From positions 2,480,001-2,544,000 of the forward strand of contig NZ_JACSGT010000001.1 of the NCBI RefSeq assembly GCF_021504595.1: a stretch of 64,000 nt of DNA, given 5' to 3'. Of this stretch, positions 15,989 through 60,516 are shown piece after piece. The stretch comes from Chryseobacterium indicum. Its GTDB lineage: Bacteria > Bacteroidota > Bacteroidia > Flavobacteriales > Weeksellaceae. The notes beneath the pieces are model-generated. The model was not told the origin of the DNA and did not search any database. It was given only the letters and a program-made list of their open reading frames with translations. A program made the translations under genes and the position numbers. Position 1 is the stretch's first letter; the number at the start of each line of letters is the position of its first letter.

Positions 15989-17600
<1,612 letters not shown>

Positions 17601-21888: not shown

Positions 21889-21911
21889 AATATTTAGTTT
21901 TTAGTGGATTA

Positions 21912-24893: not shown

Positions 24894-24903
24894 AGTAATA
24901 TTT

Positions 24904-27918: not shown

Positions 27919-27922
27919 GGCT

Positions 27923-31066: not shown

Positions 31067-31070
31067 AGCG

Positions 31071-31496: not shown

Positions 31497-31510
31497 TTTT
31501 TCTTTATTTT

Positions 31511-31801: not shown

Positions 31802-31802
31802 A

Positions 31803-33476: not shown

Positions 33477-33484
33477 TTTATTTT

Positions 33485-34425: not shown

Positions 34426-34437
34426 TTTAAAAAAAAA

Positions 34438-34896: not shown

Positions 34897-34906
34897 AATG
34901 CTAATT

Positions 34907-35344: not shown

Positions 35345-35368
35345 GATGTATGGTTTTAGAGTTAATAA

Positions 35369-38691: not shown

Positions 38692-40166
<1,475 letters not shown>

Positions 40167-40634: not shown

Positions 40635-40985
40635 ATGGCATCACAAAATCCAGTAATCAACCAAAGTGGAAGTGCAAGTATTAAATCAGGTCAATTCTGT
40701 ACCTGGAATACGGCAAACGGTACAAACTCTACCATCACCATTGCTAACGCCAGCAGAAGTAATGTATTAAAATTTGCTATTTCAGGAGCTCCGGCAAGTG
40801 GTATTATTGTAGACAATGCAGGTCAGTCGACAACACCTTTCGACGGGGTGTATTCTTTGAAGCCCAATTCTCCAAACATCGTGGTTACAGCTTTTGGTGA
40901 TTTTGGCGGTTCAACAGTTACCATCACCAACATTACCAATGCTCAAAATGATGCTGAGGCAAGCATTCAGTGTCAAACAAGCTAA
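40635..40985 (+). CDS. Small unknown protein, first gene of the large operon
   Basis: 116 residues, no recognised family. There is no signal peptide or membrane segment. It looks like a single small beta-sandwich, Ser/Thr/Asn-rich with few charges: NQSGSASIKSGQFCTWNTAN, STITIANASRSNVLKFAISG and FDGVYSLKPNSPNIVVTAFG. The same layout (beta strand, SGAPxSG, FDGxxxLKP, FGDFGGSTVTITN) appears in the next gene, so they are paralogues. The ATG at 40635 is preceded by AATAATT; the next gene overlaps its 3' end. Function unknown; it may be an accessory or structural subunit. Confidence 0.7.
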   Translation: MASQNPVINQSGSASIKSGQFCTWNTANGTNSTITIANASRSNVLKFAISGAPASGIIVDNAGQSTTPFDGVYSLKPNSPNIVVTAFGDFGGSTVTITNITNAQNDAEASIQCQTS

Positions 40986-41373
40986 TTGTGGCGGTAAACT
41001 CCGCTTTCAGATTCTCTTATTATTTATTCTTGGTCATACTCTGGCAACGGCTCAGGGTATGGTCAAGTCTAAAGCAGACACTGTATGGCTTTCCCGATAT
41101 GAATTTGCACAAAAGCAAACCAACAATGGAAGCGATTGTATCTGTTCTATTACCAATAACAGTCAGGCTAATATAGCCACAGTTGTATTAACCGGCGCAC
41201 CAGATACAAGTACTATTCAACTGGACAGTACGGCAACGTTCAATGGTACACACCATTTAAAGCCCGGTCAGCAGGCAATTGCTGTAGGCAACTTTGCCGG
41301 AAAAACAATTACAGTATTAAATCTGTCCCTTTTAGATGTAGTGATTGTTGTTATGCTATTCTGCCCCGGTTAA
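40951..41373 (+). CDS. Paralogue of the preceding gene, with a possible signal peptide
   Basis: 140 residues if it starts at ATG 40951, overlapping the upstream gene by 35 bases; ATG 41059 would give 104 residues. The longer form has a basic start (MLRQAFSVKQANCGGKLR), a hydrophobic stretch FQILLLFILGHTLATAQ and a plausible cleavage after ..AQ, so this copy may be exported. The core, VVLTGAPDTSTIQLDSTATF then NGTHHLKPGQQAIAVGNFAG and KTITVLNLS, aligns with the first gene. It ends with a hydrophobic tail LLDVVIVVMLFCPG, absent from the first. Which start is used is uncertain; the signal-like stretch favours the longer one. Confidence 0.58.
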   Translation: MLRQAFSVKQANCGGKLRFQILLLFILGHTLATAQGMVKSKADTVWLSRYEFAQKQTNNGSDCICSITNNSQANIATVVLTGAPDTSTIQLDSTATFNGTHHLKPGQQAIAVGNFAGKTITVLNLSLLDVVIVVMLFCPG

Positions 41374-41415
41374 GAATTTACCTGTATCCTATTTTGATAA
41401 AAAACAATTATTCTT

Positions 41416-44400
41416 ATGGCACAATCCGAAACAGAAATCATATTCAGCAATGAAAACTCCGGAAACCCTGCGCTGTATATATACAATCAAATAGGGCAAC
41501 ATTGGACTGCTTTATTGCTACCGGAAGGATCTGCTTATACTGATCCTGCTATTACCCTTCAGACTGCAGTACAGCAACAGGTTTATTTTCTTTTTGCCAA
41601 AACAGCTCCCGCCGATCCAAGGATCTTTACAGAGAACTACCGTTCTTATCTGCTTACGTTTCGTCAAAACGTAACAGCCAACCTTACAGTTGCATGGCTG
41701 AGTAACATTAATGAAAAACCTTCTGATAAAAATACAACCGTTATTAATTTTGCTCAATATGGAGCCAATAAACCTTTTGTAGTAGGGCAGACATTTAATA
41801 CTACCATCGGAAATGGTTTTGCTACGCTTACCATACTGAACAATACCACTATGACATTACAGCCGGAAACAACTCCGGATGCTTTACGGCTTATCTGGAC
41901 TCCAGGCAACCCTAACATGAACTTTGCGAATAAAGTACTTGGAACCAGTTCGCTCTTCAACAGCGACATTACGATTCCTTTCAGCGACCCAGGGACAGGA
42001 TCTTTTCGTTTTTCACTGGGGCTTAATATGAATTTGGACTTTACAGCATATGGCTTACAAAATAAATATTATTACGGCAACAGCAAACCACGTTCCTGCT
42101 TTTCTTATCCTATGCTGAAAACCGGCAATGGCAATGATTATTTAATTACCCAGACCGAAATAGATCTGCTCGATATAGCTAATAATAACGGACTGAATAC
42201 CTATTTTGCCATCACTGGCCAGATCTACAATACACTTAGCGGTCAGAAAAGATCTGCTTCCCTGCCCAGTAATTACGCTATCAATACCGGCTACCCTCTT
42301 ACTTTATGGCCTTTGGTAAACATGGTAGATTCAGGTGCACCTGTCAATAATTTATTTCCGACAGACTACAGCGCACGTTTTGTAATATCACCACAGGATG
42401 CAGCAGGCTTCGATCCATACTACCTTTCACCAGAAGGCGATTTTTATCTTGATCCAGAAGCATCACAAGCTGCCTTTGCGGATGAAAACGGGCAATACAG
42501 TTTGCTTCCCGGACTTTCAGGTACTGAGATTATTACCTTTACTCCTTATAAAAATAATAACGGTACTGTTACCGGCGATACTATACGCTTTATTTCAAAG
42601 CAGGCCGCCTTTGCCGCTAATTTTCCGGGGCAGAAAGTTTCACTTGCCAATCCTGGGACAGATGCTCCCACTCTCGACAGTACCTATCTTACGGCATGGG
42701 CTAATATTGTTACCCAAATTTCCGGCAACGTGCAATATGCTTCACAACCTCAGGGAGCTTCTTTATTTGCCAAAGATCATGGTATAGCTTCATCTGCGAA
42801 TAACATCACAGGATTTCTAGGGTTTTATGAGCCTTCAGTAGATATGCCACAAGACAACAATTTTGCAGTGCCATTGGTGCCTTATCTTGGCATAAGTACT
42901 GTATCTTCTTCAAGCTCACAAGATATAAATACATTTGAATCCAAGGTGCTCAGTGCAGAAAGAAAAGCATTGATATCAGCCGCCTTCACAGTACCTCGTT
43001 CCAGCAAGAGTCTGGCAAAAAGAAGTATGGCAGAAGCGGAAACAACGTCTTACACTGCCTCTGCTACACCGCAGGGAATGGTTGCCAATGTAAATAATGA
43101 CGGCAGCTGGGGATTACTAAATCTGGCGCAGAATACCGTAAATAATGGTTCTCCTGAATATCTAAATCCCGAAGGGCAAATACCGGCAACACCTCCGCAA
43201 TATCAGCTCAGTTTTATTAATCTGATGCCTCAAATGCAGAGCGCATTTCTTACCAATCAGCAGTTTCTGGTAATGACCAATAATCAATATTTAGGCAATT
43301 TATTCTCAACGATGAATACATCAGGCGGTGGCTCAAGCAATCAACCGGTGTTCAACAATAAAATGTCTATTGAAGACTGGCCTTTTGATCTGAATGTGGG
43401 AACAAGTAATACTTACGCCGACTATAATAATGTTTTAATTTTTAAATTCTGTCAGGGCAGCATTATCGATCGGGTAAAAAATCCGAAAGAATGGACTCAG
43501 GCTAATGCATTTAATATTGATAAAGACAATACTGATCCCAATGCTTCTTATAACCAGCTGGTTGCCGTATCATCGTGGCTTCAGGATTATTTACAGGCGG
43601 CTGAAGACGCATATAACGCTGCTCTCTTAAATCCTGCCTCCGGACAGCTTGAATATTATCAGAAGTTTCATTCCATTATCAATGATCCTAATTGGAATGG
43701 CATTCTGGCTCTTAAAGCAACAATCGATCTAAAAGAATTCCCTCAACAATTAAAAGGACTAATCAGCGGTATTAACCTTAAAAACTTCTATGCACATCAT
43801 TTTGGAATAGAAGTAAACCGTGTAGATGCAAGCGGTGTGATAACTATGGATCCTGTAAGTTCTTTGTTCGGGTTGATAAATTATGTTGATCCTGCATATG
43901 CCCAGCAAATCTCACAGGGATTAGATCCTAATAAGCCGATACAGCCTGCAGCAGGCGCTACTTATGATTTTAAAGTATTGTTTCTACAGGTACTCTTTGA
44001 AAATACAGCCATCAAAGATTTTGCCAGTAAGATACAGCTTACCATGAATAATCTCTTCTCTGATAAAGTAACTCATACAAACAATCCTTACGGTTCAGGC
44101 AGTCTGAATACAGTGGTACTGAATGGCACTTATCAGGATCATAATGGCACTCCTGTATATGTTTTTGATAATAAAGACGATAATCTTTTCTTCTTTGACA
44201 GTAATCTGCTTACGAATGTAGAAATTACCAAAATACAGTTCAATACACTCACAACCGATCCTGCAGCACTCGATATACAATCGAGGTTTACCATGTGGGG
44301 CTACCTTAACTTCGATACAATGATAGCTCCGGCTTCCGGCGAAGGGGAAACAGATTATCCGCTTGATACTTTTTCTTTTGGGATCACAATAAACAATGAT

Positions 44401-45069
44401 ACTTTACAACAAGGGCTTAATTACAGCAACCTGTATGTAAATATGTCATTTAATCTAAATACGCCTTCAGTTACAACTTTTGCTTTCGATGCCTCTCAGA
44501 TTGCTTTTAATTCATCACAAAGCAATGCCAGACAGAATAGCCTTTATCCTAATTTTGCTTTACAGATCAATAAACTCTTGAGTGGCAATGAAGAATCGGC
44601 TCCATCAGGACAAGGGTATTTAAAGCTTGCATTGCCCGGCATCAATGCCACGGGACTTGCTGGTAACTGGTACGGATTGCAGATGACACTTAATATGGGC
44701 TCACCCGGAGAGCTTGCCAGCAGCGGAGGTTTTAATGCCAGTCTTCTGATTGCGTGGAGCCCCGGATCTAAAAGTGCGGCTCCCGGCTACAATGCATTTG
44801 TAGGTATTAAGCTGCCCGGTACTTCCAGTAATGCTAAACTTCTGAGCATACAGGGTGTATTAAAATTATCTATTGATAAACTGAGTTTACAATACGTAAA
44901 AGACCAGAACTCATATCTTTTGACCTTATCTAACATTGCTTTGAAATTACTGGGCATTTTGAAATTACCTCCCGGAGGAAATACGGATTTCCTATTGTTC
45001 GGTAATCCCAATCCGGGTGCTACCGCTAAAAGTCTGGGTTGGTATGCTGCTTATAATAAATCAGAATAA
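41416..45069 (+). CDS. 1217-residue unknown beta-rich protein
   Basis: No family recognised with confidence. It opens with a small beta domain (ETEIIFSNENSGNPALYIYN). There is no signal peptide, no transmembrane segment and no Cys-rich region. It is Asn/Ser/Thr/Gly-rich with long beta-strand patterns, e.g. FRFSLGLNMNLDFTAYGLQN. The C-terminal ~130 residues (LSIQGVLKLSIDKLSLQYVK, SNIALKLLGILKLPPGG, SLGWYAAYN) look like an amphipathic beta repeat similar in style to parts of the giant protein encoded two genes on; I considered the DUF6603-type repeats but cannot confirm it. It follows the small pair by 42 bases and precedes the EEP enzyme by 36, so all are one operon. It could be a structural scaffold or a carrier subunit. 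Confidence 0.68.
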   Translation: MAQSETEIIFSNENSGNPALYIYNQIGQHWTALLLPEGSAYTDPAITLQTAVQQQVYFLFAKTAPADPRIFTENYRSYLLTFRQNVTANLTVAWLSNINEKPSDKNTTVINFAQYGANKPFVVGQTFNTTIGNGFATLTILNNTTMTLQPETTPDALRLIWTPGNPNMNFANKVLGTSSLFNSDITIPFSDPGTGSFRFSLGLNMNLDFTAYGLQNKYYYGNSKPRSCFSYPMLKTGNGNDYLITQTEIDLLDIANNNGLNTYFAITGQIYNTLSGQKRSASLPSNYAINTGYPLTLWPLVNMVDSGAPVNNLFPTDYSARFVISPQDAAGFDPYYLSPEGDFYLDPEASQAAFADENGQYSLLPGLSGTEIITFTPYKNNNGTVTGDTIRFISKQAAFAANFPGQKVSLANPGTDAPTLDSTYLTAWANIVTQISGNVQYASQPQGASLFAKDHGIASSANNITGFLGFYEPSVDMPQDNNFAVPLVPYLGISTVSSSSSQDINTFESKVLSAERKALISAAFTVPRSSKSLAKRSMAEAETTSYTASATPQGMVANVNNDGSWGLLNLAQNTVNNGSPEYLNPEGQIPATPPQYQLSFINLMPQMQSAFLTNQQFLVMTNNQYLGNLFSTMNTSGGGSSNQPVFNNKMSIEDWPFDLNVGTSNTYADYNNVLIFKFCQGSIIDRVKNPKEWTQANAFNIDKDNTDPNASYNQLVAVSSWLQDYLQAAEDAYNAALLNPASGQLEYYQKFHSIINDPNWNGILALKATIDLKEFPQQLKGLISGINLKNFYAHHFGIEVNRVDASGVITMDPVSSLFGLINYVDPAYAQQISQGLDPNKPIQPAAGATYDFKVLFLQVLFENTAIKDFASKIQLTMNNLFSDKVTHTNNPYGSGSLNTVVLNGTYQDHNGTPVYVFDNKDDNLFFFDSNLLTNVEITKIQFNTLTTDPAALDIQSRFTMWGYLNFDTMIAPASGEGETDYPLDTFSFGITINNDTLQQGLNYSNLYVNMSFNLNTPSVTTFAFDASQIAFNSSQSNARQNSLYPNFALQINKLLSGNEESAPSGQGYLKLALPGINATGLAGNWYGLQMTLNMGSPGELASSGGFNASLLIAWSPGSKSAAPGYNAFVGIKLPGTSSNAKLLSIQGVLKLSIDKLSLQYVKDQNSYLLTLSNIALKLLGILKLPPGGNTDFLLFGNPNPGATAKSLGWYAAYNKSE

Positions 45070-45105
45070 ATTGCCTTAATCATATGTACATAAAAAATAA
45101 CAACC

Positions 45106-46464
45106 ATGGCAAGAATACTCTACTGGAACATACGGCAATTCGCAATTAACAAGATCGATGCACCTCGGGCTAAAAGGAGATGGGATGGATCTTTTATTAT
45201 TCCTCCGCAACCGGGCTACAGAAAACGAGTAATAAGAACGACAATCACCCAGAACAAACCCGATATTTTTGTCGTAGTAGAAACATCTACCGGAGCCGGA
45301 GCTGCAGGTACTTTAATTTCTGCAGGCGGAGCTGATGGAAGCATATTTCTGCTACAACAAATGAGAACCTGGTTTCCGGGTGACGACTGGCGGCTTATTC
45401 CCCCGCTAAGGCTGGGACAAGGAAATGTTCAGGAGGGTATCTCTGTATTTTATAACCATGCCAGAGTACAATTTACAGGTCCATGGGGATGGCAGGGCGA
45501 TGGCAACCCATCTGATTCGGTTGCTAACATAGGACTGGGAAACCTCGTTAACTATGGTCCTCCTTGGGTAAACCTTCTGCCTGCCGGCAATGCACCTGCC
45601 GGACTTAACACAATTAACCCTGGTGTACCCTATAGGAAACTTGCGGGACAATGGCTTTTTCACGGACCTTTGGCTGGCGGTGTTGCTCCGGTATTAGGCT
45701 TTCCTAATGCATTTAACAGAACTCCTTTCTTAACTACTTTCTGGGAACCGGGAGCAGGAGGTGCAGCAGGCAAAATGATTAAATTATTGTCTTTCCATGC
45801 TTCACCAAAAAAACAGCAGGCAGCCGATGGAACCAACCAATTATCCAATATTCTTGAAATGACTACAGATCTTGCTGCCAATCAGGTAGGAGTTATTGTA
45901 GGAGATTTTAATGTAGATTTATTTAATACTCACTTTGAACCCATTGCTTACGACCGTTTACTTAGTGCTTTTCCAGTAGGTGTTGGCTATACCCGTCAGA
46001 TTAATCCTACCGCTAACATATGGCCAGACAAAGGATATGTTTGTACCATGCTGAGGTCTCATAACAGTGCCAGACCCTGGGCAACAAACGGCTATCCGGG
46101 GTATGAATATGTAATACAAGATACATTCTCGAGTGTAGACAATATTTTAACACGTTATGGCGGAGGTTCGGCTGTTGGTCCTGCAACCAACATTACCATA
46201 GCCAACAGAGTTACAGGAACACCATACAACAGAGATGTGCCAGCTATAGCGGGAGCTCCACAAGGGAGTTTGATTTATAATTCTGCCATGGCATTAGATG
46301 GAGGAGGATTACCTTCTGCACTCCCTCTTCCTATAGCCGGACCCACAGGACATGGCGGCGTTGTTCCCGGAAATATAGGAGCGCTGACTTCTTTTGTTGG
46401 CTGGAATAACTACCGCAGAATCATCAGTACCAGTGACCACATGGGATTAATTGTGGACGTTTAA
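45106..46464 (+). CDS. Endonuclease/exonuclease/phosphatase (DNase I-fold) enzyme
   Basis: 452 residues. All catalytic landmarks of the EEP superfamily are present: Asn8 in YWNIRQF, Glu59 in PDIFVVVETS, His231 in LLSFHASP, Asp267 and Asn269 in VIVGDFNVD, Asp345/Asn346 in SSVDNIL, and Asp444/His445 in STSDHMGLIV. It should be a metal-dependent phosphodiesterase; the family includes DNase I, CDT-B toxin, sphingomyelinases and inositol phosphatases, and the substrate cannot be told here. Gly/Pro/Ala-rich insertions occur at about 130-215 and 350-430, longer than usual. There is no signal peptide, unlike most secreted bacterial EEP enzymes. It sits between two very large non-enzymatic proteins in one operon, suggesting it is their cargo or toxic subunit. 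Confidence 0.85.
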   Translation: MARILYWNIRQFAINKIDAPRAKRRWDGSFIIPPQPGYRKRVIRTTITQNKPDIFVVVETSTGAGAAGTLISAGGADGSIFLLQQMRTWFPGDDWRLIPPLRLGQGNVQEGISVFYNHARVQFTGPWGWQGDGNPSDSVANIGLGNLVNYGPPWVNLLPAGNAPAGLNTINPGVPYRKLAGQWLFHGPLAGGVAPVLGFPNAFNRTPFLTTFWEPGAGGAAGKMIKLLSFHASPKKQQAADGTNQLSNILEMTTDLAANQVGVIVGDFNVDLFNTHFEPIAYDRLLSAFPVGVGYTRQINPTANIWPDKGYVCTMLRSHNSARPWATNGYPGYEYVIQDTFSSVDNILTRYGGGSAVGPATNITIANRVTGTPYNRDVPAIAGAPQGSLIYNSAMALDGGGLPSALPLPIAGPTGHGGVVPGNIGALTSFVGWNNYRRIISTSDHMGLIVDV

Positions 46465-46482
46465 CAGAATCATTTTATTATT

Positions 46483-49400
46483 ATGAGCTTATCCAATTTA
46501 GTTACTACATTTAAAAGCCAGGCTGCTGCCAATAGCGGTAATATTACTATTAATGCAGCATCTTTTACCGATTCAGGCTTAATTCCGCCAGTTGGGCTGG
46601 ATGAATTGCTGTCTCAAAGTTATCAACTTCCGGATGGCTCATTTTTGTTGATTGATACTTCCGGTACTTCTATTCCTGAGCCTGTAGGAAATACATTAAC
46701 AATTTCCAATGCTACGGCAGCAATACTTAATGTAGAAAAGGCAAATACTTCAGTTACACTGATTATTACAGCAAACGAAGCGGATGAAGTTCAGTTTACC
46801 ATACAAATTAACCTGTCCGACTGGAAGTTTGCTACCAGCTGGCAATACATGACGGGTGGCGTATTCGATAATCTTCCATACACCTACCCTTCCTTCATTT
46901 TCAGTACTCAGGACACAGCCATTTTCAGCTGGAAGCAAAAAAATATATCTTTAACGAAGGGGCAAAACTTTGCATCGCTTATTACCCTTACCCAATGGCT
47001 TAAGCCTGTCGTAAACTTTTTTACTTCATGGTCACCTTCTACCAATCTGGCTTTGGCAGGAAGTATAGATCCCTCTCAGGTTAATAACGAAGACATTATT
47101 TATCCCGAGATGAATTTATTTGTGCCTATTGATGCAACTTTAATATCATTAGGTTTTCTCAATGTCAGTAACCCCGGAGTTGGATTTCAGATTAAAACAG
47201 AAGAAGAAACGGTTACAGCCGATCCGGAAGATGAAGGAGAAGCATTACGTCTGGAATATGAACCTACAGACAGCTTAACACCAGCAGAAGGAGAAACACA
47301 AAAAGTACAAACTCCTATCCTCTATTTTAGTTTGCTGTTGGCAGCCGGAAATTCTATTGTACTGAATTTTAGTGCTGCTGTAGAATATGAATCTTCTTCT
47401 TTTACCCTGAATGTAGACTCTGAGCCAGACAAACCACTCACACCTCTCAACCTGTTCGGTCTTATGGCTGGACAAAATTGGTTTCAGAATATTCCTCCTA
47501 CTTTACAACAGTACCTCAACAGCATTGCATTCAAGGGATTTAACACGGGACTGGATTTTAACAACGGGCTTACTATTACCAGCGTTTCCTCTTTTATTGG
47601 CTCCAATGGAGCCTGGACGCTTTTTGATAATTTCATTATTCAGCAGTTTGATGTTAATTGGGTCATTATTAATCCGGGAACTACCAATTCACAAAGTTTA
47701 TATTTCAGTGCTCACGTAGACTTTTTCCCAACCATATTTGTTGGGGGTTTCGATGTGGAAATTACCTCAGACCTAACCCTTTCTGCTGCCTTTACAGGAT
47801 CTGTTACCTTCAACAATTTACTGTCTGCCATTACAGCAGGAGCCATTACTATTCCAGAGAATCTTTTACTGGTTGAGTTTACTGCTTTCGGGATTAATAT
47901 GGATATCAACAGTAAATATTATGAGTTTTATGCGAATGCAAATATTGACCTGAATTTCATTACTAACGTTTCGGTAACGGATGGTACGTTACTGCTAACT
48001 TCTTCTTCACCCGCGAGCGGTACCGGTCCAAGTATATTTACGGCAAAGGTATCCGGATTGTTTGCCATTGGTAAATTACAACTTAATACCGATGTAAATT
48101 ATAATTCATCGGACGGATGGAACTTAAGCCTTGCAATGCCGGAAAGCAGTAACTTAAATCTGGGAGAGCTCATTAAGCAATTATTCCAGTCTATCAGTCT
48201 GCCTACAAGTTTTTTACCAGATAGTCTTAATATTACTCAATTCTCACTGGATGCCACAATTCCCAGCGGAACGGGAAAAAGCAGCTACGAGGTAAAAGGA
48301 GGACTGCAGTGGATCTTTACCTTTCCTATTATTGATCAGCAGATCAACATCATTGCCAATCTTTGGCTGAAATATGAAGCCGCGAGTAATGATTCTACAT
48401 CCGGTAAATATTCCGGTGGTGTTTTAGGAAGTGTAACATTAGAATACTTCAATGCTACTGTCGGTATAAGCTATAATTTCGCCGAAAATAATCAGCAGCT
48501 TGCGATTACCTGGGAAGGCTTTACCGCTATGTATGACGTAACCGGAGAAAGCCGTACAATTGTTTTCTCTATTAAAAACTGGACATTGGGCGGGTTAATT
48601 ACCTCTTTTATGAAGATGTTGTTTAACCCTACATTTGAGCTTGATGCACCATGGGATATACTCAACAAAATAAGTCTGGATGGATTCTCGGTTACATACA
48701 ACCTCGACACGAAAGATATTAAGGTTACTTACAAATTACCTAAAACATTAGACCTTATATTCATCAATATCAATGGAATTAATCTTACCAAAAATCAGAA
48801 AGGGGTATTTATCACTTTTGATGGGAATTCCGTTGTTCCTTCTATCAACGAAAGTAATTTATTTAAACCAGAGACAGGCGGACAGGACATTCAGAAAATG
48901 CCGGATGTTCCGGGACAAGGCACACAGTATTTCGATTTGCGTCTGCTGGCAATGGGTCAGCATGTAGAATTGATAAATCCAGCCCAGTACAACTCCATCA
49001 AGGATGTAACAAAAGCTATGCAGGAAGCTTTTACCGAACCAAAACCGGGTACCATTCCTATAGGATCGGGCTCCGGCAACACACTGCTTAGATTCAATGA
49101 AGACAGCAACTGGCTCATCGCCACCAATTTCGGGATACTGAATGCAGGAACAAAAGAGAAGCCTGTTTGGACTCTCGATATGCAGGTGGTATTTAATGAT
49201 CCTAATCTCTATGGTCTGCGTATCGCTATGGCAGGTGGAAAAGCCAAAGTATTTGAAGGGCTGGATTTTGAGATCATGTATAAAAAGATTTCTGAATCCA
49301 TTGGCGTATATCAAATGGATCTTACCCTTCCTAATGCTTTACGTTATCTGCAGTTTGGTGCGGTCAATATCACTCTTCCTTCCATTGGTATAGAAATTTA

Positions 49401-52400
49401 CACCAATGGCGATTTCACGGTAGACATTGGCTTCCCTTACAACATGGATTTCTCCCGATCATTTACAGTACAGGCTATTGTGCCTCCGGGTATACCGGCT
49501 ATGGGTTCAGGGGGAATCTATTTCGGAAAGCTCAGCAGTGCTACAACCAATAAAGTCCCTAAGACCAACTATGGAAACTTTAATCCGGTAATTGTATTTG
49601 GTATCGGCTTGCAGGTAGGTGTAGGATATAGCGTAAACTATGGCTTACTCAGCGCCGGCTTCAGCGTTACCATGTTTGGTGTTATTGAAGGAGTAATAGC
49701 AGCTTATTATCCTTACAGCGGCACTTTACAGGAAAGCAATAAAGAACAGGTAGAAACTTCATATTATTATTATCTTCAGGGTACTATAGGGATTATCGGT
49801 AAATTATACGGTTCTATAGACTTTGGTATTATATCGGCAAGTGTAAACATTACGGTAATGGTGTATGCACAGGCAACCTTTGAAGCTTATAATAAAATAC
49901 CATTGGCTATTGTAGCTTCTGTAGATGTAAGAGTTTCTGCTAAATTAAATCTAGGAATCTTCTCCATTACCATTCATTTTACTTTTACAGCAAAAATTAG
50001 ATTTGATCTTACCATCGGCACGGATCAGACAGCAAAAGCTCCCTGGAATAATAATCTTTCGGCACCAAACGCAGCATCCCGTATATCTTCACCTGCAGCC
50101 GAATTTCGTATTGCTCCTGCCCGACAGGCAACACCACTTGATGGCGCCAGACCTGTTTCTTTTGCAGTAATGGATTCATTAGATATAATGGAGCTGACAG
50201 GCTCTGATATAATGGTGATGCGCCGTTCGCCCAATATGCCAATCAGCTATCATTCCGTTTTGGTAGAAGATGACTCTGAACTCCCTGTGCTTAATTTATA
50301 TTTTGTACCCCATTTAACAGTAGCAGGATCTGAAAACGGAAATCTGCAGGACCAGACAGCACAATATGTAGCTACTTTATTCATCGATGCTCCCGATCCT
50401 TCGGGTGACGGTAGCGGAACTACAACTTCCTTTGAATATCTATGCTCTGATTTTTTCCGTTGGCTGGTACTGAACTACATTGATCATACCCCTTCGAAGT
50501 CTTCCCGTGAAGAAGTAGAAACTGAAGGTATTTCAAAAGCTGACCTTGATGCATTAATCACATTCCTTTCAAGCGAAGAATATCCGTTTCCTATTCCTAC
50601 CAATGACCTGCTAAGCTTTCTTCAAAATAGTTTTCAGGCATTAAATGTACAATTATTAAAAGAAGATCTTGCTGCCGCAGCAATTTTCCCAATGTTTTTT
50701 GATCTTGAACTGAAAGTACCAGATATTGCATTGGACATCCAGTTCAATAACTATAATATGGCTACACAGGAATACCTGTCTGAAGTAAAAAAATGGTTTA
50801 ATGAACTTGCCGTAAAGGTACAGGAAGAAACATCTTCTGCCGCCAGATTTATGACTTTGGAAGATCCTCAGCAATGGAGTATGTCTACTTTTGTATTTGA
50901 AGACTACTTTGTACTTATAGGGAAACAACTGGCAGGTTACGCATCTGATGCTATGGATAATTTTACCTACCGCATCAGCAATGGTAATAGCTTGTCGGCC
51001 ATGGTAACCTGGGCAAACAGCATTACTGTAGACGGAACAGGCAATAAAGTAAATGTTCAGGATATTGCGACAGCTAACCAGACACATCCGCTTAATGGAA
51101 AAAATCCTATAGCCATTACCGGCATAATGTACGATATTTTGGAAGGTGATACTTTTAGTTCCATCGCTGCCATATACGCCATTACACCTTCAATGCTCAT
51201 TACGGAAAATGCAGCCGCACCGGGATTACTGGCTCCGCAAACGATTACTTATCATGGAAATGCATATAATGTACAATCTACAGATACCATTAACACAGTT
51301 GCTGCAGGTTTAAATACCACACTAAATGATCTTGCTTCGGATAAAGATTTCCAGAGTACAGCAGTGCTCACAACAGCTAACTGGCTGATTATTGGCGCGG
51401 CACTTTACACCGCAAAAAGCGAAGATACCTTTAGCAGTATCGCTACTCTTATCTATAATCATCTTGATACAGCGGCTTTACTGATGCAGAACCAGATCAC
51501 TCCAGGTCTTTTCATTGCAGGCAACAGTTTTGAATACGACGGTATAAAATATGTAATCGTACCGGGTGATACCCTTACCAGTATGGCAGCAGCTATTTCT
51601 ATATTAAAAGGAACTACGGTTACACCCCAGGATCTTGCAGGTAATATCCAAGTACAGGCACAACAAGTGCAGCCTCTCGGACAGGTATTAATTCAGCCTT
51701 TTACACACACTACTGTTGAATTCACCGATGCAGCAAACGCCGATACGCTTGATGCATTGGCTCAGCAATACAATACCACAGCAGCCTTATTGGCTACCAA
51801 CTATGCCAATCAGCAGCAAAATAACTTTTTCTACAACGGAGAAGGATTTACCAATGCCAATATTCCGGGTCTGCAGTATTTAACTGTAGGCAGTATTCTG
51901 GAATACTTTGCCGATAATAACTCCTATGGACAATTATCCGGTATGGCATCTCGTTATCAGTTACATGGTATGCGTCTGCCTACGAATCTTCCGGGGCTTA
52001 CCCTTGCACAAGGTTCACCCTGTACAGGAAATAATTGTGCCCTATATTCCCTTACCGGTCAGGAGTTTACCCTTCCGGCTACAATACCTGCCGATTTCTC
52101 TATCCAGCTCATCAACAATTCATTAAGCTGGCTTCAGTTTAACGGAAAATCAATGGATGAGGAAAGCGGAAATATATTAAATGTAAAGCTGACGCCTGAG
52201 GACATTAATCAAATTGACACCTTGCTTAATTATGCACAGACAAAAGGGATAAAGCCGGACGTTCTGGAGCTCGCACCTATGAAGCCTTTCAACCTGCAGC
52301 CTGTACAATATACTTTCCAGACAACTACAAAGTGGCAAACTTCCGGAGCATTAAACCTGCCTTATGGGTCACCAGACAGTCAAAGCAGCGTATCACCACT

Positions 52401-55400
52401 TATCTGGCAATTTCCTTCAGGTCTGCTCAATCAGTTGGCACTGCCTAAAGAAGCAGGTTCTGAATTCAGTATACAGATCGGTCAGTACGATGCAGCTAAA
52501 GGAGTAATGGACTACTGGCCATCCTCCTATTACGGCTGGAGTACGATGATAGATATAGAACTTAAACTTCTTGATACTGATTCCATCGCTCCTGTAAATG
52601 CTTACAGTTATGAATTATTAGGTGCAAGCGAAGCCGGTGCTAATATCCTGCAAAGACTGTTGTTAGCATTAAACCCGAAATCTTCCAATAACAATCTGGA
52701 TAAAATAGTCGATATACAGTGGTTGTATGAAGGCTCAGATGGATTATTGTCCGTAGGTATGGAACACATGAAGACCTTCATCGTACAGGCTAATCTTTCC
52801 ACAGAAACAAATCCTGACAATGCTACTATGAAAATGATGGCTTTGGAAGTAGCAGAAGAAAAGCCAGATACAGGAATACTGAACAGTATTTATGATTTCA
52901 TACGTATGCTATGGGAATGCAGCATTACCCGTTCAGGAGGATATTATCTTATGTATAATGAAACAGAAGGTAATACAGGATTTCCTTCCAGTATTTTTGG
53001 AAAAGGAGATAATGCGAATGTACGCCTGCTTGTTACCTATAGCAGCCAGTACAATAATAAGCCTACAGATTACATGAACTGTGCAGTAACCGGTGATAAA
53101 ATTGATGCTAATTCTTGTGTGGTATATGCGCAAAGCGAAATGCAGGAAGGACTATCCTATTATGTAAATAAGCCAGAAGATACTATTGATGCAATAACTG
53201 CACGCTTCAATATATTACCTGCAGAACTGGTAGATCTTAATAAAAAAGTGACACTTAACACGAAGGCTACTGTAAATGATTCTTTAAAATATGATATTCC
53301 GACTATTATATTTGATGGATTGGTATGTGAAATAGGTGCCAGCGGACCGGGAAATACGCTGACTTCAATTGCAGCTTATTACAATGTGGAAGCAAGTACC
53401 ATACAACAACTCAACCCAGATATTACTGACTGGAATAATCTTCCGCTCTGGCAGCTGATACTGTTGCCTCAGGTGCAATACACCATCAGTGCGGAGGGTA
53501 AAGCGGGTCTTACATTTGAAACCATAGCTGCCTATTATTTTATCGATATGGCTTCCATGGCTTGGGCAGCAAAAGATGTAGTCAATATTTTTATGGCTTC
53601 AACCATGCTTACTATCAATGATCAGATCATGCATAAAGTAACAGCCGTTCAGCAAGGTACTGCAGGTTTTGATCTGAACAGAACCAACCCGAACCCGGAT
53701 CCTGAAAATCAGCCGAAGATCACTGATCCTGATTATGCAGAGGTATATCTCAACAATATGTACAATCTTTTAAGCTATCAGATCGTAGAAAACAGCTGGT
53801 TCGGTGAAAGTGTTGTGGGCTTACCTGCTGGTCCTGCCAAACCACAAACACAAGATGATGTACTGGGTAAAACAGACAATGATGACACTGGAGATGATCT
53901 GATCTGGTATTACAATCAGATTGTGCCTATTGCCAAATTTGCCAAAACGAACCCATTTATGACTTATCCTTCCGGCTATCCGCAGGAAGAAGACAATCCG
54001 TATCGTGGTATCGGTCATCAGGTACAGGTACATTTTGACTGGGTAGATTACTATGGTAATGTAACAGTAACTCCATTTAGTGATCCGGAAATGGATCCCT
54101 CTACTCCGGTAAACAACTCACCTATTCAAACCGGCTACGTGGATGAGCTGAAAGGATTGGGTAAATGGCCAAGTGTGGAGTTAAGTTATTTGTTTGATCT
54201 TGACCTCAATCATAACCCTGAACTTAAAATAGAATTTAACTTTAATATCCAGCGTTATAATGATTTGCCTGATGTACCGGCAGATCAGCAGCAAGACTGG
54301 AAACAGAATGCCGCTAATGATCTTGTAACCTATACCAATATATATTATCAGTTAACACAATTAAATCCGACAGACGGTAAGAATACTTTAACGATTACAC
54401 TAAGCACATCCCTTACACCAGGCAAAACTGTTGATCTGTCTGATGAACAGTTTAACCAGATGCTGCAGTTTGTAAAAGATATTTATACTTATCTATCCGC
54501 ACGCAGTCAGGGTAATGAAGCAACAGCACCTGTAATGAGCCCCATCACAAGTTCTGTGAATATAGAGGATATAGATACACACTCTATCCTACAGCTCACT
54601 GTGAATCTCGACTTTTACCGTGACCTTAAATACGTTAACACAGATTTTAAAGATAGTGATCTGGTTACCCGCGCTCTTACTCAGGTAAAGCCGAAAACCA
54701 TGTCTACAACAGTGAAGGACGGTACAGATCCTCAATACAGCCTCAACGAATTTGCTGCTTTATTCGAAGCTGCTTTCTTAAATGCCGGTAATTATGAACT
54801 GAAAATTGCCATTGGTACCAATGCTGCAACAGCAGGCGGTGTGAATAATCAGGCAGTATTCGTAGTACGCATGGGGCTAAAATCCGGGCAGGGTATTTAC
54901 TGGAAAGTTAATCAGGCAGGTACTTATAAGCTGACTACAGAATCCATTACACAGCTTACAGCTGAAGGCGTTCCTGCAGAAGTTACCACGGCTATCAGCT
55001 CTTTGGTAGACACTTTTTATGAAAACAGGGATCAGTTCGATATTGCGTTACAACAAAAACTGACTGAAAAACAGTTTTCCCAGTATCGCATCAACATCTA
55101 TACCTATAGCTTGCTGAATGCGGTATTCTATGCTCCCAAACCATTAGCAACGAGTCTCGTTTCTAAAAGCGGAGTTCCTATATGCAAATATATCACGGGT
55201 CAGGGTCTGGATTGCAGCAAAGGGGAAATACAGACGTTTACCGGCATAGATATGGATACGTGGGGTGCACAGTCTCTTAATGCTATTGATGTATTCCTGA
55301 GTGCAGACTATGCAATACCTGCTTTCCTTGTAGATCAATTAAAAGCAGATGAAGAAGAGGCATGGCTGGCTACACAGGGGATTGAAGCGACCACTTATTT

Positions 55401-57378
55401 ACAGGCTATTACCAATGCTAAAACCACACTTGCTGGTGCCATAGCTTCAGAAGTAGAACCTGTACTGAAGGCACCGTATGTTTCGTTCGCAACAGGTGAC
55501 AATACAAGTCTCGGCAATGCAAGGGAAAAATTTGAGCAACAATTGCTTAACCAATTAGGCAATGCCTATACCGTAAATGCTCTTGTTCAATTTGAAGTAA
55601 CTGCTGAATCAGACTTCAGAGCAGACAGCAACTACAAAACACCACCACGACTGTATGGCACACCGGTGATCAATAACAAAGCAGACGGTGATGCAAAAGA
55701 ATATAGTATTTGTACATCCAAGATACAGCTAAACGAAAAAGACGCGGCGGACACAGATTCCTTCCTTACGTTCAGTTTTACCACCAAAAATGCAAAAGAG
55801 TTTACCAGTGTAGATCTGGATATGACCTATGTGTTAACCCACGTGGAATGTGATATCAGTGATGTAGCCGGTATCAATGGATATCAGGGTTCCAACTGGC
55901 TAACCTTCATTATACCTGCTGATGTAAACAGCCTTGGTGGCGATAATCCTGTTTCAGCATCTTTACAGCAAAGTTTAGGTATCGTGGATATTCCGGTAGT
56001 ATTGCGTAATTATCCTACACCGCCTACTCTCACTACGCAGACCGGTAAAAGTGTTCCCGTATCAGGAGATAATACAAAAACACGTCTTGCCAAAGCATCC
56101 GAATGGAATTTTATGTATTCCTATACTGAAGATCAGGCAGCACAGGACAAAATATTTTCCGATATTGAATTCAATACCGTGCCTGCTCTTTCTGCAAAAA
56201 TGTATGGAAGTCCTGCACGTGATCTTTTCAGTGATCTGGCTCAGTTTGTGACTGTATGGCCACAGGTATTGGACGATTTCAATAGCTACCTGAAGATGAT
56301 TACCGCTCAATCAGACAGCACTGATCCTAATCTTACCAATGCTTATTATGCTTTGCAGACGATGGTGAGTTTAACAAATAACCTTGCTATTGCATGGAGC
56401 GAGTACAATGGTTTACAAATCGATAATTCTAATGATAATTCTACGGCACGGGCTTACGACTTTATTATCCGACAGACAGATGATACTGATTTTGACAACC
56501 GTCTGCTCGTAACCATTGTTCCTGCTGCGGATATGTCTTCTGATGATCTGTCGCTCTACAGGGGTAATAAAGATGTATTTGAGGCTGAATTACCCAAAAC
56601 GCCTTATGTAACTATTGACAACTATACAAAAGTGAATGCTACTGATAAAAACGGAACTCCTATTCCTAATGCATATTGGTATCAGGCGGCAGATAAAACC
56701 TACCTCTCATGGGAAAAATCTTTCAATATTCCGTCCCGCAACGTTAATGTAGATGCGCTGAATGTCTTACAATTCCAGTATGCATGGGCGGGTATTTCCA
56801 TTATTCGTAATGAAGACCTTGTTCCGTACAACCCTACCATTAATAACTTTATTTACCGTACACCATTGGTAAGATTCTCTAATAAACTGATTCCTTTGCT
56901 TAACAGTAATGATATTTTTGATATTGCTAAAATTAATAATGAGGCAGGAGTCAATCTGTCGCTCGCACAACAGTTGGCCAATTTCCTCAGCACTTTCTTT
57001 ACCTACGATGAACTGGCAGAACAATTGCTAAAACTAAGTGTATCATGGAATTATCCATTATTGGGTACATCCGGAAATATTCTTCCTACTATAGAATTAC
57101 CCGTTTTGCTTGCCGCTCCATTCATTTTCGAAATACCAAAAGATTATGAGATACCTGTCGGAGGATGCCAGCCTTCGTTTAGTGAAGCAGATCCGTTTGT
57201 GTGCCGTCTTTCTAATGCACTAAAAACCTGGTATAGCCAGCACAAACCTGTAAACAGTGGTGCATGGTTTCAGATTGATCTGGCGGTATTCTCATCTCTC
57301 AGCGAGAGTAAGCTTCCACTGATAGAGCTTAAAAATATCGTTTTGTATTATAAAAATATTACGGATATTAATATATAA
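46483..57378 (+). CDS. Giant 3631-residue beta-rich protein with LysM-like repeats
   Basis: Very large, no signal peptide and no family I can assign. Residues 1-1190 are amphipathic beta-strand sequence (for example WTLGGLITSFMKMLFNP, DILNKISLDGFSVTYNL), resembling large DUF6603-type repeat proteins, which I cannot confirm. Residues 1190-1545 are mixed. Four LysM-like units follow at about 1547-1800: YDILEGDTFSSIAAIYAITP, AYNVQSTDTINTVAAGL, YTAKSEDTFSSIATLI and YVIVPGDTLTSMAAAI. A second group lies at about 2215-2380 (YVNKPEDTIDAITARFNILP, GNTLTSIAAYYNVEASTIQQ). Between and after them are long beta/alpha regions, including a Cys pair in GSPCTGNNCALYSL and a C-terminus FVCRLSNALKTWYSQHKPVN. 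The gene starts 18 bases after the EEP gene. It may be the scaffold or delivery body of a toxin-like complex; that is inference. Confidence 0.75.
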   Translation: MSLSNLVTTFKSQAAANSGNITINAASFTDSGLIPPVGLDELLSQSYQLPDGSFLLIDTSGTSIPEPVGNTLTISNATAAILNVEKANTSVTLIITANEADEVQFTIQINLSDWKFATSWQYMTGGVFDNLPYTYPSFIFSTQDTAIFSWKQKNISLTKGQNFASLITLTQWLKPVVNFFTSWSPSTNLALAGSIDPSQVNNEDIIYPEMNLFVPIDATLISLGFLNVSNPGVGFQIKTEEETVTADPEDEGEALRLEYEPTDSLTPAEGETQKVQTPILYFSLLLAAGNSIVLNFSAAVEYESSSFTLNVDSEPDKPLTPLNLFGLMAGQNWFQNIPPTLQQYLNSIAFKGFNTGLDFNNGLTITSVSSFIGSNGAWTLFDNFIIQQFDVNWVIINPGTTNSQSLYFSAHVDFFPTIFVGGFDVEITSDLTLSAAFTGSVTFNNLLSAITAGAITIPENLLLVEFTAFGINMDINSKYYEFYANANIDLNFITNVSVTDGTLLLTSSSPASGTGPSIFTAKVSGLFAIGKLQLNTDVNYNSSDGWNLSLAMPESSNLNLGELIKQLFQSISLPTSFLPDSLNITQFSLDATIPSGTGKSSYEVKGGLQWIFTFPIIDQQINIIANLWLKYEAASNDSTSGKYSGGVLGSVTLEYFNATVGISYNFAENNQQLAITWEGFTAMYDVTGESRTIVFSIKNWTLGGLITSFMKMLFNPTFELDAPWDILNKISLDGFSVTYNLDTKDIKVTYKLPKTLDLIFININGINLTKNQKGVFITFDGNSVVPSINESNLFKPETGGQDIQKMPDVPGQGTQYFDLRLLAMGQHVELINPAQYNSIKDVTKAMQEAFTEPKPGTIPIGSGSGNTLLRFNEDSNWLIATNFGILNAGTKEKPVWTLDMQVVFNDPNLYGLRIAMAGGKAKVFEGLDFEIMYKKISESIGVYQMDLTLPNALRYLQFGAVNITLPSIGIEIYTNGDFTVDIGFPYNMDFSRSFTVQAIVPPGIPAMGSGGIYFGKLSSATTNKVPKTNYGNFNPVIVFGIGLQVGVGYSVNYGLLSAGFSVTMFGVIEGVIAAYYPYSGTLQESNKEQVETSYYYYLQGTIGIIGKLYGSIDFGIISASVNITVMVYAQATFEAYNKIPLAIVASVDVRVSAKLNLGIFSITIHFTFTAKIRFDLTIGTDQTAKAPWNNNLSAPNAASRISSPAAEFRIAPARQATPLDGARPVSFAVMDSLDIMELTGSDIMVMRRSPNMPISYHSVLVEDDSELPVLNLYFVPHLTVAGSENGNLQDQTAQYVATLFIDAPDPSGDGSGTTTSFEYLCSDFFRWLVLNYIDHTPSKSSREEVETEGISKADLDALITFLSSEEYPFPIPTNDLLSFLQNSFQALNVQLLKEDLAAAAIFPMFFDLELKVPDIALDIQFNNYNMATQEYLSEVKKWFNELAVKVQEETSSAARFMTLEDPQQWSMSTFVFEDYFVLIGKQLAGYASDAMDNFTYRISNGNSLSAMVTWANSITVDGTGNKVNVQDIATANQTHPLNGKNPIAITGIMYDILEGDTFSSIAAIYAITPSMLITENAAAPGLLAPQTITYHGNAYNVQSTDTINTVAAGLNTTLNDLASDKDFQSTAVLTTANWLIIGAALYTAKSEDTFSSIATLIYNHLDTAALLMQNQITPGLFIAGNSFEYDGIKYVIVPGDTLTSMAAAISILKGTTVTPQDLAGNIQVQAQQVQPLGQVLIQPFTHTTVEFTDAANADTLDALAQQYNTTAALLATNYANQQQNNFFYNGEGFTNANIPGLQYLTVGSILEYFADNNSYGQLSGMASRYQLHGMRLPTNLPGLTLAQGSPCTGNNCALYSLTGQEFTLPATIPADFSIQLINNSLSWLQFNGKSMDEESGNILNVKLTPEDINQIDTLLNYAQTKGIKPDVLELAPMKPFNLQPVQYTFQTTTKWQTSGALNLPYGSPDSQSSVSPLIWQFPSGLLNQLALPKEAGSEFSIQIGQYDAAKGVMDYWPSSYYGWSTMIDIELKLLDTDSIAPVNAYSYELLGASEAGANILQRLLLALNPKSSNNNLDKIVDIQWLYEGSDGLLSVGMEHMKTFIVQANLSTETNPDNATMKMMALEVAEEKPDTGILNSIYDFIRMLWECSITRSGGYYLMYNETEGNTGFPSSIFGKGDNANVRLLVTYSSQYNNKPTDYMNCAVTGDKIDANSCVVYAQSEMQEGLSYYVNKPEDTIDAITARFNILPAELVDLNKKVTLNTKATVNDSLKYDIPTIIFDGLVCEIGASGPGNTLTSIAAYYNVEASTIQQLNPDITDWNNLPLWQLILLPQVQYTISAEGKAGLTFETIAAYYFIDMASMAWAAKDVVNIFMASTMLTINDQIMHKVTAVQQGTAGFDLNRTNPNPDPENQPKITDPDYAEVYLNNMYNLLSYQIVENSWFGESVVGLPAGPAKPQTQDDVLGKTDNDDTGDDLIWYYNQIVPIAKFAKTNPFMTYPSGYPQEEDNPYRGIGHQVQVHFDWVDYYGNVTVTPFSDPEMDPSTPVNNSPIQTGYVDELKGLGKWPSVELSYLFDLDLNHNPELKIEFNFNIQRYNDLPDVPADQQQDWKQNAANDLVTYTNIYYQLTQLNPTDGKNTLTITLSTSLTPGKTVDLSDEQFNQMLQFVKDIYTYLSARSQGNEATAPVMSPITSSVNIEDIDTHSILQLTVNLDFYRDLKYVNTDFKDSDLVTRALTQVKPKTMSTTVKDGTDPQYSLNEFAALFEAAFLNAGNYELKIAIGTNAATAGGVNNQAVFVVRMGLKSGQGIYWKVNQAGTYKLTTESITQLTAEGVPAEVTTAISSLVDTFYENRDQFDIALQQKLTEKQFSQYRINIYTYSLLNAVFYAPKPLATSLVSKSGVPICKYITGQGLDCSKGEIQTFTGIDMDTWGAQSLNAIDVFLSADYAIPAFLVDQLKADEEEAWLATQGIEATTYLQAITNAKTTLAGAIASEVEPVLKAPYVSFATGDNTSLGNAREKFEQQLLNQLGNAYTVNALVQFEVTAESDFRADSNYKTPPRLYGTPVINNKADGDAKEYSICTSKIQLNEKDAADTDSFLTFSFTTKNAKEFTSVDLDMTYVLTHVECDISDVAGINGYQGSNWLTFIIPADVNSLGGDNPVSASLQQSLGIVDIPVVLRNYPTPPTLTTQTGKSVPVSGDNTKTRLAKASEWNFMYSYTEDQAAQDKIFSDIEFNTVPALSAKMYGSPARDLFSDLAQFVTVWPQVLDDFNSYLKMITAQSDSTDPNLTNAYYALQTMVSLTNNLAIAWSEYNGLQIDNSNDNSTARAYDFIIRQTDDTDFDNRLLVTIVPAADMSSDDLSLYRGNKDVFEAELPKTPYVTIDNYTKVNATDKNGTPIPNAYWYQAADKTYLSWEKSFNIPSRNVNVDALNVLQFQYAWAGISIIRNEDLVPYNPTINNFIYRTPLVRFSNKLIPLLNSNDIFDIAKINNEAGVNLSLAQQLANFLSTFFTYDELAEQLLKLSVSWNYPLLGTSGNILPTIELPVLLAAPFIFEIPKDYEIPVGGCQPSFSEADPFVCRLSNALKTWYSQHKPVNSGAWFQIDLAVFSSLSESKLPLIELKNIVLYYKNITDINI

Positions 57379-57413: not shown

Positions 57414-57510
57414 CTGCAATAATTTTCTTTTATCAAAAAAATCACCATTAAGATTAAGAGTTATGTTTGAAAACCTTAAATAGCTCAATGATAAAAGAAA
57501 ATTATTACAG
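57414..57510. repeat. 97-bp element with 22-bp terminal inverted repeats
   Basis: CTGCAATAATTTTCTTTTATCA (57414-57435) is the inverse of 57489-57510 with one mismatch, around a 53-base interior. No clear target duplication was seen. It may be a small MITE, or a long-loop terminator after the giant gene, whose stop is 36 bases upstream. The rest of the gap 57379-57622 shows nothing supported. Confidence 0.55.
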
Positions 57511-60069: not shown

Positions 60070-60152
60070 GGTTAAGTCTATTTTTTACTAAAATTATTCT
60101 AAAGATGAATAAGTTACTTCCACAGAATAACAAAATATAATTGCTATAAAAT

Positions 60153-60184
60153 AAAAAAGTCTCCTAAAATTTAGAAGACTTTTT
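60153..60184 (-). terminator. Terminator of the three-gene tRNA-Asp array
   Basis: AAAAAGTCT (60154-60162) pairs with AGACTTTTT (60176-60184), and TCCTAAA with TTTAGAA extends the stem with one mismatch. On the minus strand, T's follow. It ends one base before the tRNA array begins. Confidence 0.65.
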
Positions 60185-60185
60185 G

Positions 60186-60259
60186 CGATCCGGACGGGAC
60201 TCGAACCCGCGACCTCCGCCGTGACAGGGCGGCATTCTAACCAGCTGAACTACCGGATC
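60186..60259 (-). tRNA. tRNA-Asp(GTC), third of three tandem copies
   Basis: 74 bases, identical to the tRNA-Asp at 38456-38529: acceptor GATCCGG/CCGGATC, anticodon loop CTGTCAC (GTC), T arm GCGGGTTCGAGTCCCGT. Furthest from the promoter at 60517. Confidence 0.95.
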
Positions 60260-60291
60260 AATTTTTTTAAAAGAAATTGAGAAAACTTCTG

Positions 60292-60365
60292 CGATCCGGA
60301 CGGGACTCGAACCCGCGACCTCCGCCGTGACAGGGCGGCATTCTAACCAGCTGAACTACCGGATC
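60292..60365 (-). tRNA. tRNA-Asp(GTC), second of three tandem copies
   Basis: Identical to its neighbours, separated by spacers of 32 and 35 bases that share AAGAAATTGA/AAGTAAATTGA and ACTTYTGC motifs. Confidence 0.95.
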
Positions 60366-60400
60366 AAATTTTGTTTTAAAAGTAAATTGAAAAACTTTTG

Positions 60401-60474
60401 CGATCCGGACGGGACTCGAACCCGCGACCTCCGCCGTGACAGGGCGGCATTCTAACCAGCTGAACTACCGGATC
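60401..60474 (-). tRNA. tRNA-Asp(GTC), first of three tandem copies
   Basis: Identical sequence, nearest the promoter at 60517-60547. Its leader is about 42 bases. Confidence 0.95.
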
Positions 60475-60516
60475 ATGTTTTTGTTTCTAAAGAACTTCGT
60501 TTCTTTTTTGTGATGG

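Follow-up and report, generated by a model that had tools for sequence, protein, structure and literature searches.

An apparently undescribed gene set of two giant proteins and an exchangeable enzyme, patchily present in seven phyla, looks like a new modular protein weapon

We analyzed a 64,000-nucleotide stretch of the 4.8-Mb genome of Chryseobacterium indicum (here called the window, to whose positions coordinates refer unless a locus is named), in which five genes on the plus strand occupy positions 40635..57378. These genes encode two small beta-proteins, a 1217-amino-acid (aa) protein, a 452-aa enzyme of the endonuclease/exonuclease/phosphatase (EEP) type that resembles DNase I, and a 3631-aa giant with LysM domains. 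The 1217-aa protein and the giant recur together in seven phyla, and the gene between them is exchangeable; the two large proteins and the exchangeable enzyme very probably constitute one unit. As judged from the sequences, the gene set appears to be undescribed and patchily distributed, the enzymes swapped into its middle position seem to be unrelated to one another and mostly DNA-cutting, and the whole looks like a new modular protein weapon.

A fixed gene pair around an exchangeable middle gene

All five open reading frames (ORFs) proposed by the first-pass annotation, an earlier reading of this DNA, were confirmed in the ORF list of the window, on the plus strand throughout, the large genes being set off by gaps of 42, 36, and 18 bases; only the start of the second small gene had to be moved. 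The order is small protein s1 (116 aa, 40635..40985), small protein s2 (141 aa, 40948..41373), the 1217-aa core protein (41416..45069), the 452-aa enzyme in the exchangeable, or cargo, position (45106..46464), and the giant core protein (46483..57378). The ORFs are not chance, because every gene, the small ones included, has relatives outside the window and because the portion of the operon available from Chryseobacterium sp. ZHDP1 (locus L009, which shares its coordinates with G358, a genome classed as the same species) is 98% identical. The five genes are likely to form a single transcript, and a 22-nucleotide inverted repeat 3' of the giant gene (57414..57510, plus strand; arms at 57414-57435 and 57489-57510) is possibly the end of the transcription unit. 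The five-gene composition held within the genus; elsewhere the core consists of one or more small proteins, the 1217-aa protein, an optional enzyme, and the giant.

In order to define the distribution of the system, a profile of the 1217-aa protein was scanned over one genome per species, which gave 101 relatives, of which 80 were kept, representing 73 distinct loci. These loci belong to Bacteroidota, Pseudomonadota, Actinomycetota, Bacillota, Cyanobacteriota, Acidobacteriota, and Ignavibacteria, several coming from metagenome bins, including the only Acidobacteriota and Ignavibacteria ones; gram-positive carriers include Clostridium, Lysinibacillus, and Paenibacillus. Since the loci were selected by the 1217-aa protein alone, the presence of the giant is an independent result: its gene lay downstream of the 1217-aa gene on the same strand in 72 of the 73 loci (in L081 as a fusion), and in the remaining locus, L062, the contig ends past the enzyme. 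Relatives were also present in eight plasmid records, and in all seven with gene tables a giant gene followed the 1217-type gene, with or without an intervening gene. The plasmid gene products were annotated as hypothetical, LysM, or Ig-like, one middle gene being annotated as endonuclease/exonuclease/phosphatase. Among 296 Bacteroidota genomes, the 1217-aa protein was found in three, all with a strong giant match, and three further genomes had weak giant-type matches and no 1217-aa protein. The operon was carried by 11 of 98 genomes of the genus and was present as a single copy in all 10 carrier genomes checked. Across 54 loci, the pairwise identities of the 1217-aa protein and of the giant core were correlated (Pearson, 0.95; Spearman, 0.72), which fits inheritance as a unit. 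Of the ORFs downstream of the giant in the 17 loci examined, none recurred in two or more of the other loci (the contig of L090 stops within the giant). The earlier proposal of a distinct system, for which a synteny search had been suggested, is supported by the 1217-giant pair in 72 of 73 loci, with an EEP gene between the two in 44.

The position between the two large genes was found in several states, which were assigned from ORF clusters and fusions, with Pfam run on 10 slot proteins plus the EEP set. A DNase I-like EEP gene was present in 44 of the 73 loci, a ComEC-type metallo-beta-lactamase (MBL) in 12 (5 with two copies and 1 fused), and a 500-aa enzyme-like family in 11, 2 of them fused. 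Paired HNH proteins filled the slot in L078, two small proteins did so in both L076 and L077, an EEP remnant was left in L047, and the slot was empty in L075 and L081. The two small middle proteins of L076 were considered as pieces of a split giant, a reading that was rejected when hhalign gave no match. On a tree of the 1217-aa protein with 58 rows (15 of the 73 loci were dropped, namely, 14 near-copies and the partial L031), nine cargo changes were needed, the minimum with seven states being six, and the cargo labels were clustered. Owing to several long branches, this tree is uncertain in places. Enzyme swapping is real but infrequent.

The MBL cargos carry HxHxDH and HHGS motifs, and their best match in a profile search of the Protein Data Bank (PDB) was ComEC, consistent with their assignment to the ComEC type. 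The 500-aa family occupies the slot in L032, L035-L037, L042, L046, L065, L067, and L079 and is fused in L058, L064, L083, and L084. It has G-H-Q and E-G motifs that are invariant in nine aligned members, and searches of Pfam, NCBIfam, and PDB profiles gave no credible match, only weak unrelated hits. Its G-x-GHQ and P-x-x-E-G motifs might point to a GT-B glycosyltransferase.

The genes of the set are also found joined to one another. In Clostridium magnum, Burkholderia ubonensis, Azospirillum B510, and Mycetohabitans rhizoxinica, the giant carries the 500-aa enzyme as an N-terminal fusion, and in C. magnum and Mycetohabitans the giant is in addition divided into two genes. An MBL is fused to the giant in Niastella, where the MBL profile matched over positions 9-315 of ~407 only, and this fusion may be a deletion product. 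In a metagenome-assembled genome (MAG) of Saprospiraceae, the 1217-aa protein and the giant form a single ORF. In L096 (C. magnum), L084, L086, and L087, the giant is encoded by two genes; the point of division differs among these genomes and may be a module border.

Properties of the encoded proteins

The 452-aa enzyme was compared with 28 relatives in an alignment of 29 sequences. Residues N8, E59, R205, H231, D267, N269, D345, N346, D444, and H445 were invariant in all 29, as were P207 and the G266-D267-F268-N269 motif. The catalytic residues that mark the EEP superfamily (N, E, H, D-x-N, D, and D-H) are therein invariant, and the earlier description of a complete EEP active site holds. Searches of Pfam, NCBIfam, PHROGs, and PADLOC with the window protein found nothing; the Pfam EEP model PF03372, which missed it, matched 14 of the 29 aligned sequences. 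In a profile search against the PDB, the family matched 3teb (an EEP protein), sphingomyelinase C, and DNase I; the E-values were modest, ranging from 0.0007 to 0.006, and that of sphingomyelinase C was equal to or better than that of DNase I. When aligned to DNase I, the R-x-P motif, the catalytic His with S-A-P, and GDFN coincide, R205-x-P207 and H231-A-S-P aligning with R-E-P and H-S-A-P of DNase I; the remaining EEP catalytic residues presumably have their counterparts in DNase I as well. These observations suggest that the 452-aa protein is most probably a DNase. In the MAG locus L047 (5437-5820), the EEP gene is cut down to a 127-aa frame that retains both ends and lacks the middle, and the 1217-aa and giant genes are open over the available sequence. 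Locus L043 (13204-17487) has three consecutive EEP-type frames between the 1217-aa gene and the giant.

For the 1217-aa protein, Pfam, NCBIfam, PHROGs, PADLOC, and a PDB profile search all gave no match, and its structure model had no clear PDB relative. For the giant, the matches in the same four libraries were confined to LysM and families that contain it, apart from a single hit below the cutoff (E = 0.12). The presence of LysM, already proposed for the giant, was supported by PF01476 (E = 1.3e-11) and by profile self-comparison, which revealed several copies in two blocks, at residues ~1491-1826 and ~2227-2400. The first block includes a LysM-type region at residues 1594-1655 (51262..51447), which also matched NCBIfam DipM/MltD, and the second includes the PF01476 domain at residues 2289-2315 (53347..53427). 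The most conserved stretch of the giant is residues 816-1179 (48928..50019), where a porin-like beta-barrel is predicted, with six long amphipathic strands at 49573-50016; repeated long strands are a feature of the giant model. The first ten Foldseek matches of the giant had TM-scores of 0.05-0.15 and root mean square deviations of 25-52 Å and included LptD and ApoB100. A shared ancestry of the 1217-aa protein and the giant was rejected, as hhalign gave no match.

The small upstream proteins s1 and s2 are homologous by phmmer. The s2 gene is best read from an ATG at 40948 to 41373, with a 38-base overlap with s1. The N-terminus of s2 is hydrophobic and signal-peptide-like, as in all 15 loci tested for s2-type proteins, and s1 was above the threshold in none of 15, the window's s1 included among those without such an N-terminus. 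In 64 of the 73 loci, the 1217-aa gene is preceded by a small gene that belongs to any of three families, and at least two of the nine loci that lack one (L031 and L054) begin at contig ends. Small family 0 accompanies EEP, MBL, and 500-aa enzyme-like cargos alike, and enzyme-specific immunity was therefore rejected as a general role for the small upstream proteins. In a Nostoc plasmid (L085, 8536-12510), a 1325-aa gene lies immediately upstream of the 1217-type gene, and its laminin-G/concanavalin-like domain (PF13385, E = 1.5e-19) is possibly a binding part.

Signal peptides were sought with a simple hydropathy rule rather than SignalP. The first scan covered the first 45 residues of the two core proteins (here called the carriers) and of the EEP enzyme and the first 75 of the MBL, the 500-aa enzyme, and the small proteins; as some ORFs begin upstream of the gene, a second scan of the carriers began where the ORF begins and ended 45 residues beyond the start of the model. 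The 1217-aa protein had a signal-peptide-like start in 0 of 73 loci in both scans (L031 is cut at the start). For the giant, the first scan gave 0 of 71, and the rescan gave none in the 52 giants matched to the start, outside the MBL-giant fusion of L063; for the other 20, coverage was limited to the first 45 residues of the ORF, which in L064 begins elsewhere than the gene. Around residue 62, the L063 fusion is strongly hydrophobic, and its giant may be exported by Sec, provided that the fusion did not arise through a deletion. Signal-peptide-like N-termini were absent from the EEP enzyme (0/21, these being the EEP loci of the 44 with ORFs of 400-500 aa) and from the 500-aa family (0/9) and were present in all 16 MBL cargos. 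Given the N-termini of the MBL cargos and s2, part of the system acts outside the cytoplasm, and the carriers must, as a rule, take a different route out or stay inside. The earlier statement that the proteins lack a signal peptide thus holds under this rule for both giants, with the exception of L063, but not for the operon as a whole, which includes s2.

What the gene set may do

We propose that the operon is a modular antagonistic system encoding a toxin complex, a tentative reading to which we assign a probability of about 45%. It is suggested by the fixed pair, the exchangeable and mostly nuclease-like enzyme, the barrel, LysM, the absence of carrier signal peptides, and the patchy distribution. 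The 1217-aa protein and the giant would act as the constant pair of carriers, and the intervening gene would supply an enzyme that can be exchanged, in this window a nuclease resembling DNase I. All would join in one multiprotein complex in which the carriers bind or shield the enzyme, and the complex would exit the producer without Sec, either by lysis or by way of an unknown exporter. Cell walls or surfaces would be bound with the help of LysM and the small beta-proteins, and the amphipathic barrel of the giant would enter the target membrane and pass the enzyme, which would cut DNA. The computed support consists of the conservation of the pair, the enzyme swaps, the enzyme-giant and 1217-giant fusions, the EEP residues, and a low-confidence barrel model; from these we infer the physical complex, its release, the pore, the target, and the killing. 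The first-pass annotation had offered a toxin or nuclease complex and an intracellular scaffold as alternatives. The former is favored because the middle gene is swapped among unrelated nuclease folds, and a purely intracellular scaffold is disfavored by the signal-peptide-like N-termini of the MBL cargos (16/16) and s2 (15/15) and by the porin-like barrel in the giant model.

Several points weigh against a toxin complex. Toxicity, export, and complex formation are all predictions from sequence or model, and the giant model is of low global confidence (predicted TM-score, 0.41). Given its poorly scoring Foldseek matches, with LptD and ApoB100 among them, the barrel could instead be a lipid-binding sheet. 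LysM region 1 is absent from many relatives (column occupancy, 0.41). The 26 non-EEP slots include 11 with the 500-aa family, which is maybe no nuclease, and 2 with small proteins outside any known family; the swaps are few (nine changes), with labels clustered on the tree. In MBL loci, the parts would need to meet outside the cytoplasm by no known route, because the MBL cargos are signal-peptide-like and the carriers are not. No immunity gene was identified, which is unusual among antibacterial toxins: between cargo and giant, the loci share no extra family save overlapping-frame ORFs of GC-rich genomes, and a distant or unrecognized immunity gene is possible in these loci. Since no immunity gene that tracks the cargo was seen, the killing of kin fits less well than a target that is not kin, such as a eukaryote, or an enzyme that is kept shielded.

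An alternative that we consider unlikely is a surface or extracellular scaffold that processes DNA or other polymers for nutrient gain or matrix remodeling, the carriers tethering a secreted nuclease to the wall by LysM and the products passing through the barrel. The MBL cargos, ComEC-like and with signal-peptide-like N-termini in 16 of 16, would suit such a scaffold, as would LysM, the porin-like barrel, and the lack of a visible immunity gene. However, the carriers have no signal peptides (1217-aa protein, 0/73; giant, 0/72 apart from the L063 fusion), the system is also found in bacteria without an outer membrane, and swaps to HNH proteins and the 500-aa enzyme are unexpected in a dedicated uptake path.

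It is distinctly unlikely that the giant is a lipid-carrying or envelope protein with an LptD/ApoB-like amphipathic beta-sheet and that the enzymes are lipid phosphodiesterases. The long repeated strands and the Foldseek matches, which include LptD, SlpA, and ApoB100 but have low TM-scores, point in this direction, and both the EEP and MBL folds include lipid phosphodiesterases, sphingomyelinase C being among the EEP profile matches. Against this, the EEP enzyme shares R-x-P and His-motif features with DNase I, the MBL profile is nearest to ComEC, and an HNH cargo exists.

Swappable nuclease effectors are typical of defense systems, and the operon might accordingly be read as an intracellular antiphage complex with an interchangeable nuclease effector. 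The single MBL cargo tested (L030) matched PADLOC models, the best being LmuA (E = 2.1e-11), and the distribution is patchy. This reading is nonetheless improbable, as the MBL cargos and s2 are signal-peptide-like, PADLOC gave no hit for the 1217-aa protein, the EEP enzyme, or the giant, and the operon lacks a sensor ATPase.

An extracellular contractile injection system (eCIS) lies upstream of the operon on the minus strand (19791-37369, by Pfam), with genes for a sheath (35369-37369), a spike (31803-33476), a baseplate J-like protein below the Pfam cutoff (27923-31066), and a tape measure (19791-21278; a second tape-measure gene is found elsewhere in the genome). That the operon is a payload or accessory of this eCIS is highly improbable, despite the eCIS genes at ~20-37 kb of the same window and a genome, G413 (that of L024 by coordinates), in which the operon is ~8 kb from a tape-measure gene (contig 32, 189972-202788): the link was rejected because the genus control revealed no enrichment, a tape-measure gene being present in 5 of the 11 genomes with the operon and in 37 of the 87 without it. 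Such a gene is also missing from 15 of 25 carrier genomes tested in several phyla, ZHDP1 lacks the eCIS stretch next to its operon, and the operon proteins were judged far too large as tube cargo. Among the fetched loci, L024 alone had a tape-measure relative near the operon; the near-operon relative in L015 is that of the 448-aa gene at 15989. The operon itself contains no sheath, tube, baseplate, or tape-measure genes by Pfam or PHROGs. The two loci lie within ~20 kb of each other in two of the five same-genus genomes that have both (that of the window and G413), where their closeness may reflect a shared insertion hotspot.

The surroundings of the operon differ between the window and ZHDP1. 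The ~24 kb at 14803-38454, which includes the eCIS, is absent from the corresponding place in ZHDP1, both flanks aligning at 96-98%, and short pieces of the ZHDP1 junction resemble window positions 60132-60482. A transposase insertion (DUF772/DDE transposase, 38699-40160), ~475 bases upstream of the operon, is likewise absent in ZHDP1; its ends have ~7 bases in common, resembling a target duplication.

Comparison with known systems

The first-pass annotation knew of no named system with this arrangement, and the libraries and open literature searched likewise contained no characterized relative. No published description of the system was found in the open-license literature, which excludes most subscription papers and all preprints. 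The 452-aa enzyme resembles the DNase I/EEP superfamily (PF03372) in its catalytic residues and motif order but differs in its length of 450 aa with large insertions and in being missed by the Pfam model. The ComEC domain is considered to break down one of the two strands of DNA entering the cell (PMC8579336); in contrast to this C-terminal nuclease domain, the MBL cargos are stand-alone, signal-peptide-like proteins outside any DNA channel. Outer membrane porins have a Sec signal and a Gram-negative host, whereas the giant has no signal apart from L063 and is found in Clostridium, Lysinibacillus, and Paenibacillus. Tc and Rhs toxins consist of several large proteins with a beta-rich shell and an enclosed toxin, and the operon likewise encodes several large, beta-rich proteins, in which Pfam detected no Rhs/YD repeats or Tc domains at E ≤ 1.

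It is possible, if somewhat doubtful, that the gene set represents a new class of protein weapon, in which two giant carriers without signal peptides package and deliver any of several unrelated nucleases, one carrier contributing a membrane barrel and domains that bind the wall, and which horizontal transfer has taken into seven or more phyla and onto plasmids. If so, it would be a further delivery principle beside Tc toxins, Rhs, contractile injection, and two-partner systems and would explain some of the largest environmental proteins, annotated merely as "LysM domain-containing" or "hypothetical." With its partners fixed and its payload variable, the system is readily testable. Even without the toxin reading, a fixed giant pair with an exchangeable enzyme in seven phyla is a conserved unit that lacks an explanation.

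The nearest published ideas that we have seen are polymorphic toxins (PMC3482391) and TANFOR toxins (PMC7073777). TANFOR toxins are described as large Bacteroidetes proteins with varying nucleases, sometimes in the next gene, ~87% of them with Sec signals, and as almost confined to Bacteroidetes (PMC7073777). The carriers described here differ in having no Sec signals and in their spread over seven phyla; Pfam and NCBIfam scans gave no hit to the N-terminal TANFOR domain, whether those libraries include a TANFOR model not having been checked. Polymorphic toxins are described as a constant carrier with exchangeable toxin-type domains, many of them nucleases, and with adhesion domains such as LysM; the available portion of that text contains neither "DNase I" nor "metallo-beta-lactamase" (PMC3482391). 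Their carriers bear a secretion signal, while those of the present system do not, the L063 fusion excepted. Polymorphic toxins are also accompanied by a neighboring immunity gene that is specific to the toxin, and no such gene was recognized here. Both have an exchangeable enzyme on a constant carrier, the toxin nature being a prediction in our case. In polymorphic toxins, the toxin domain lies at the extreme C-terminus of the carrier, whereas the enzyme of the present system has its own gene between two unrelated giants or is fused on the N-terminal side of the giant.
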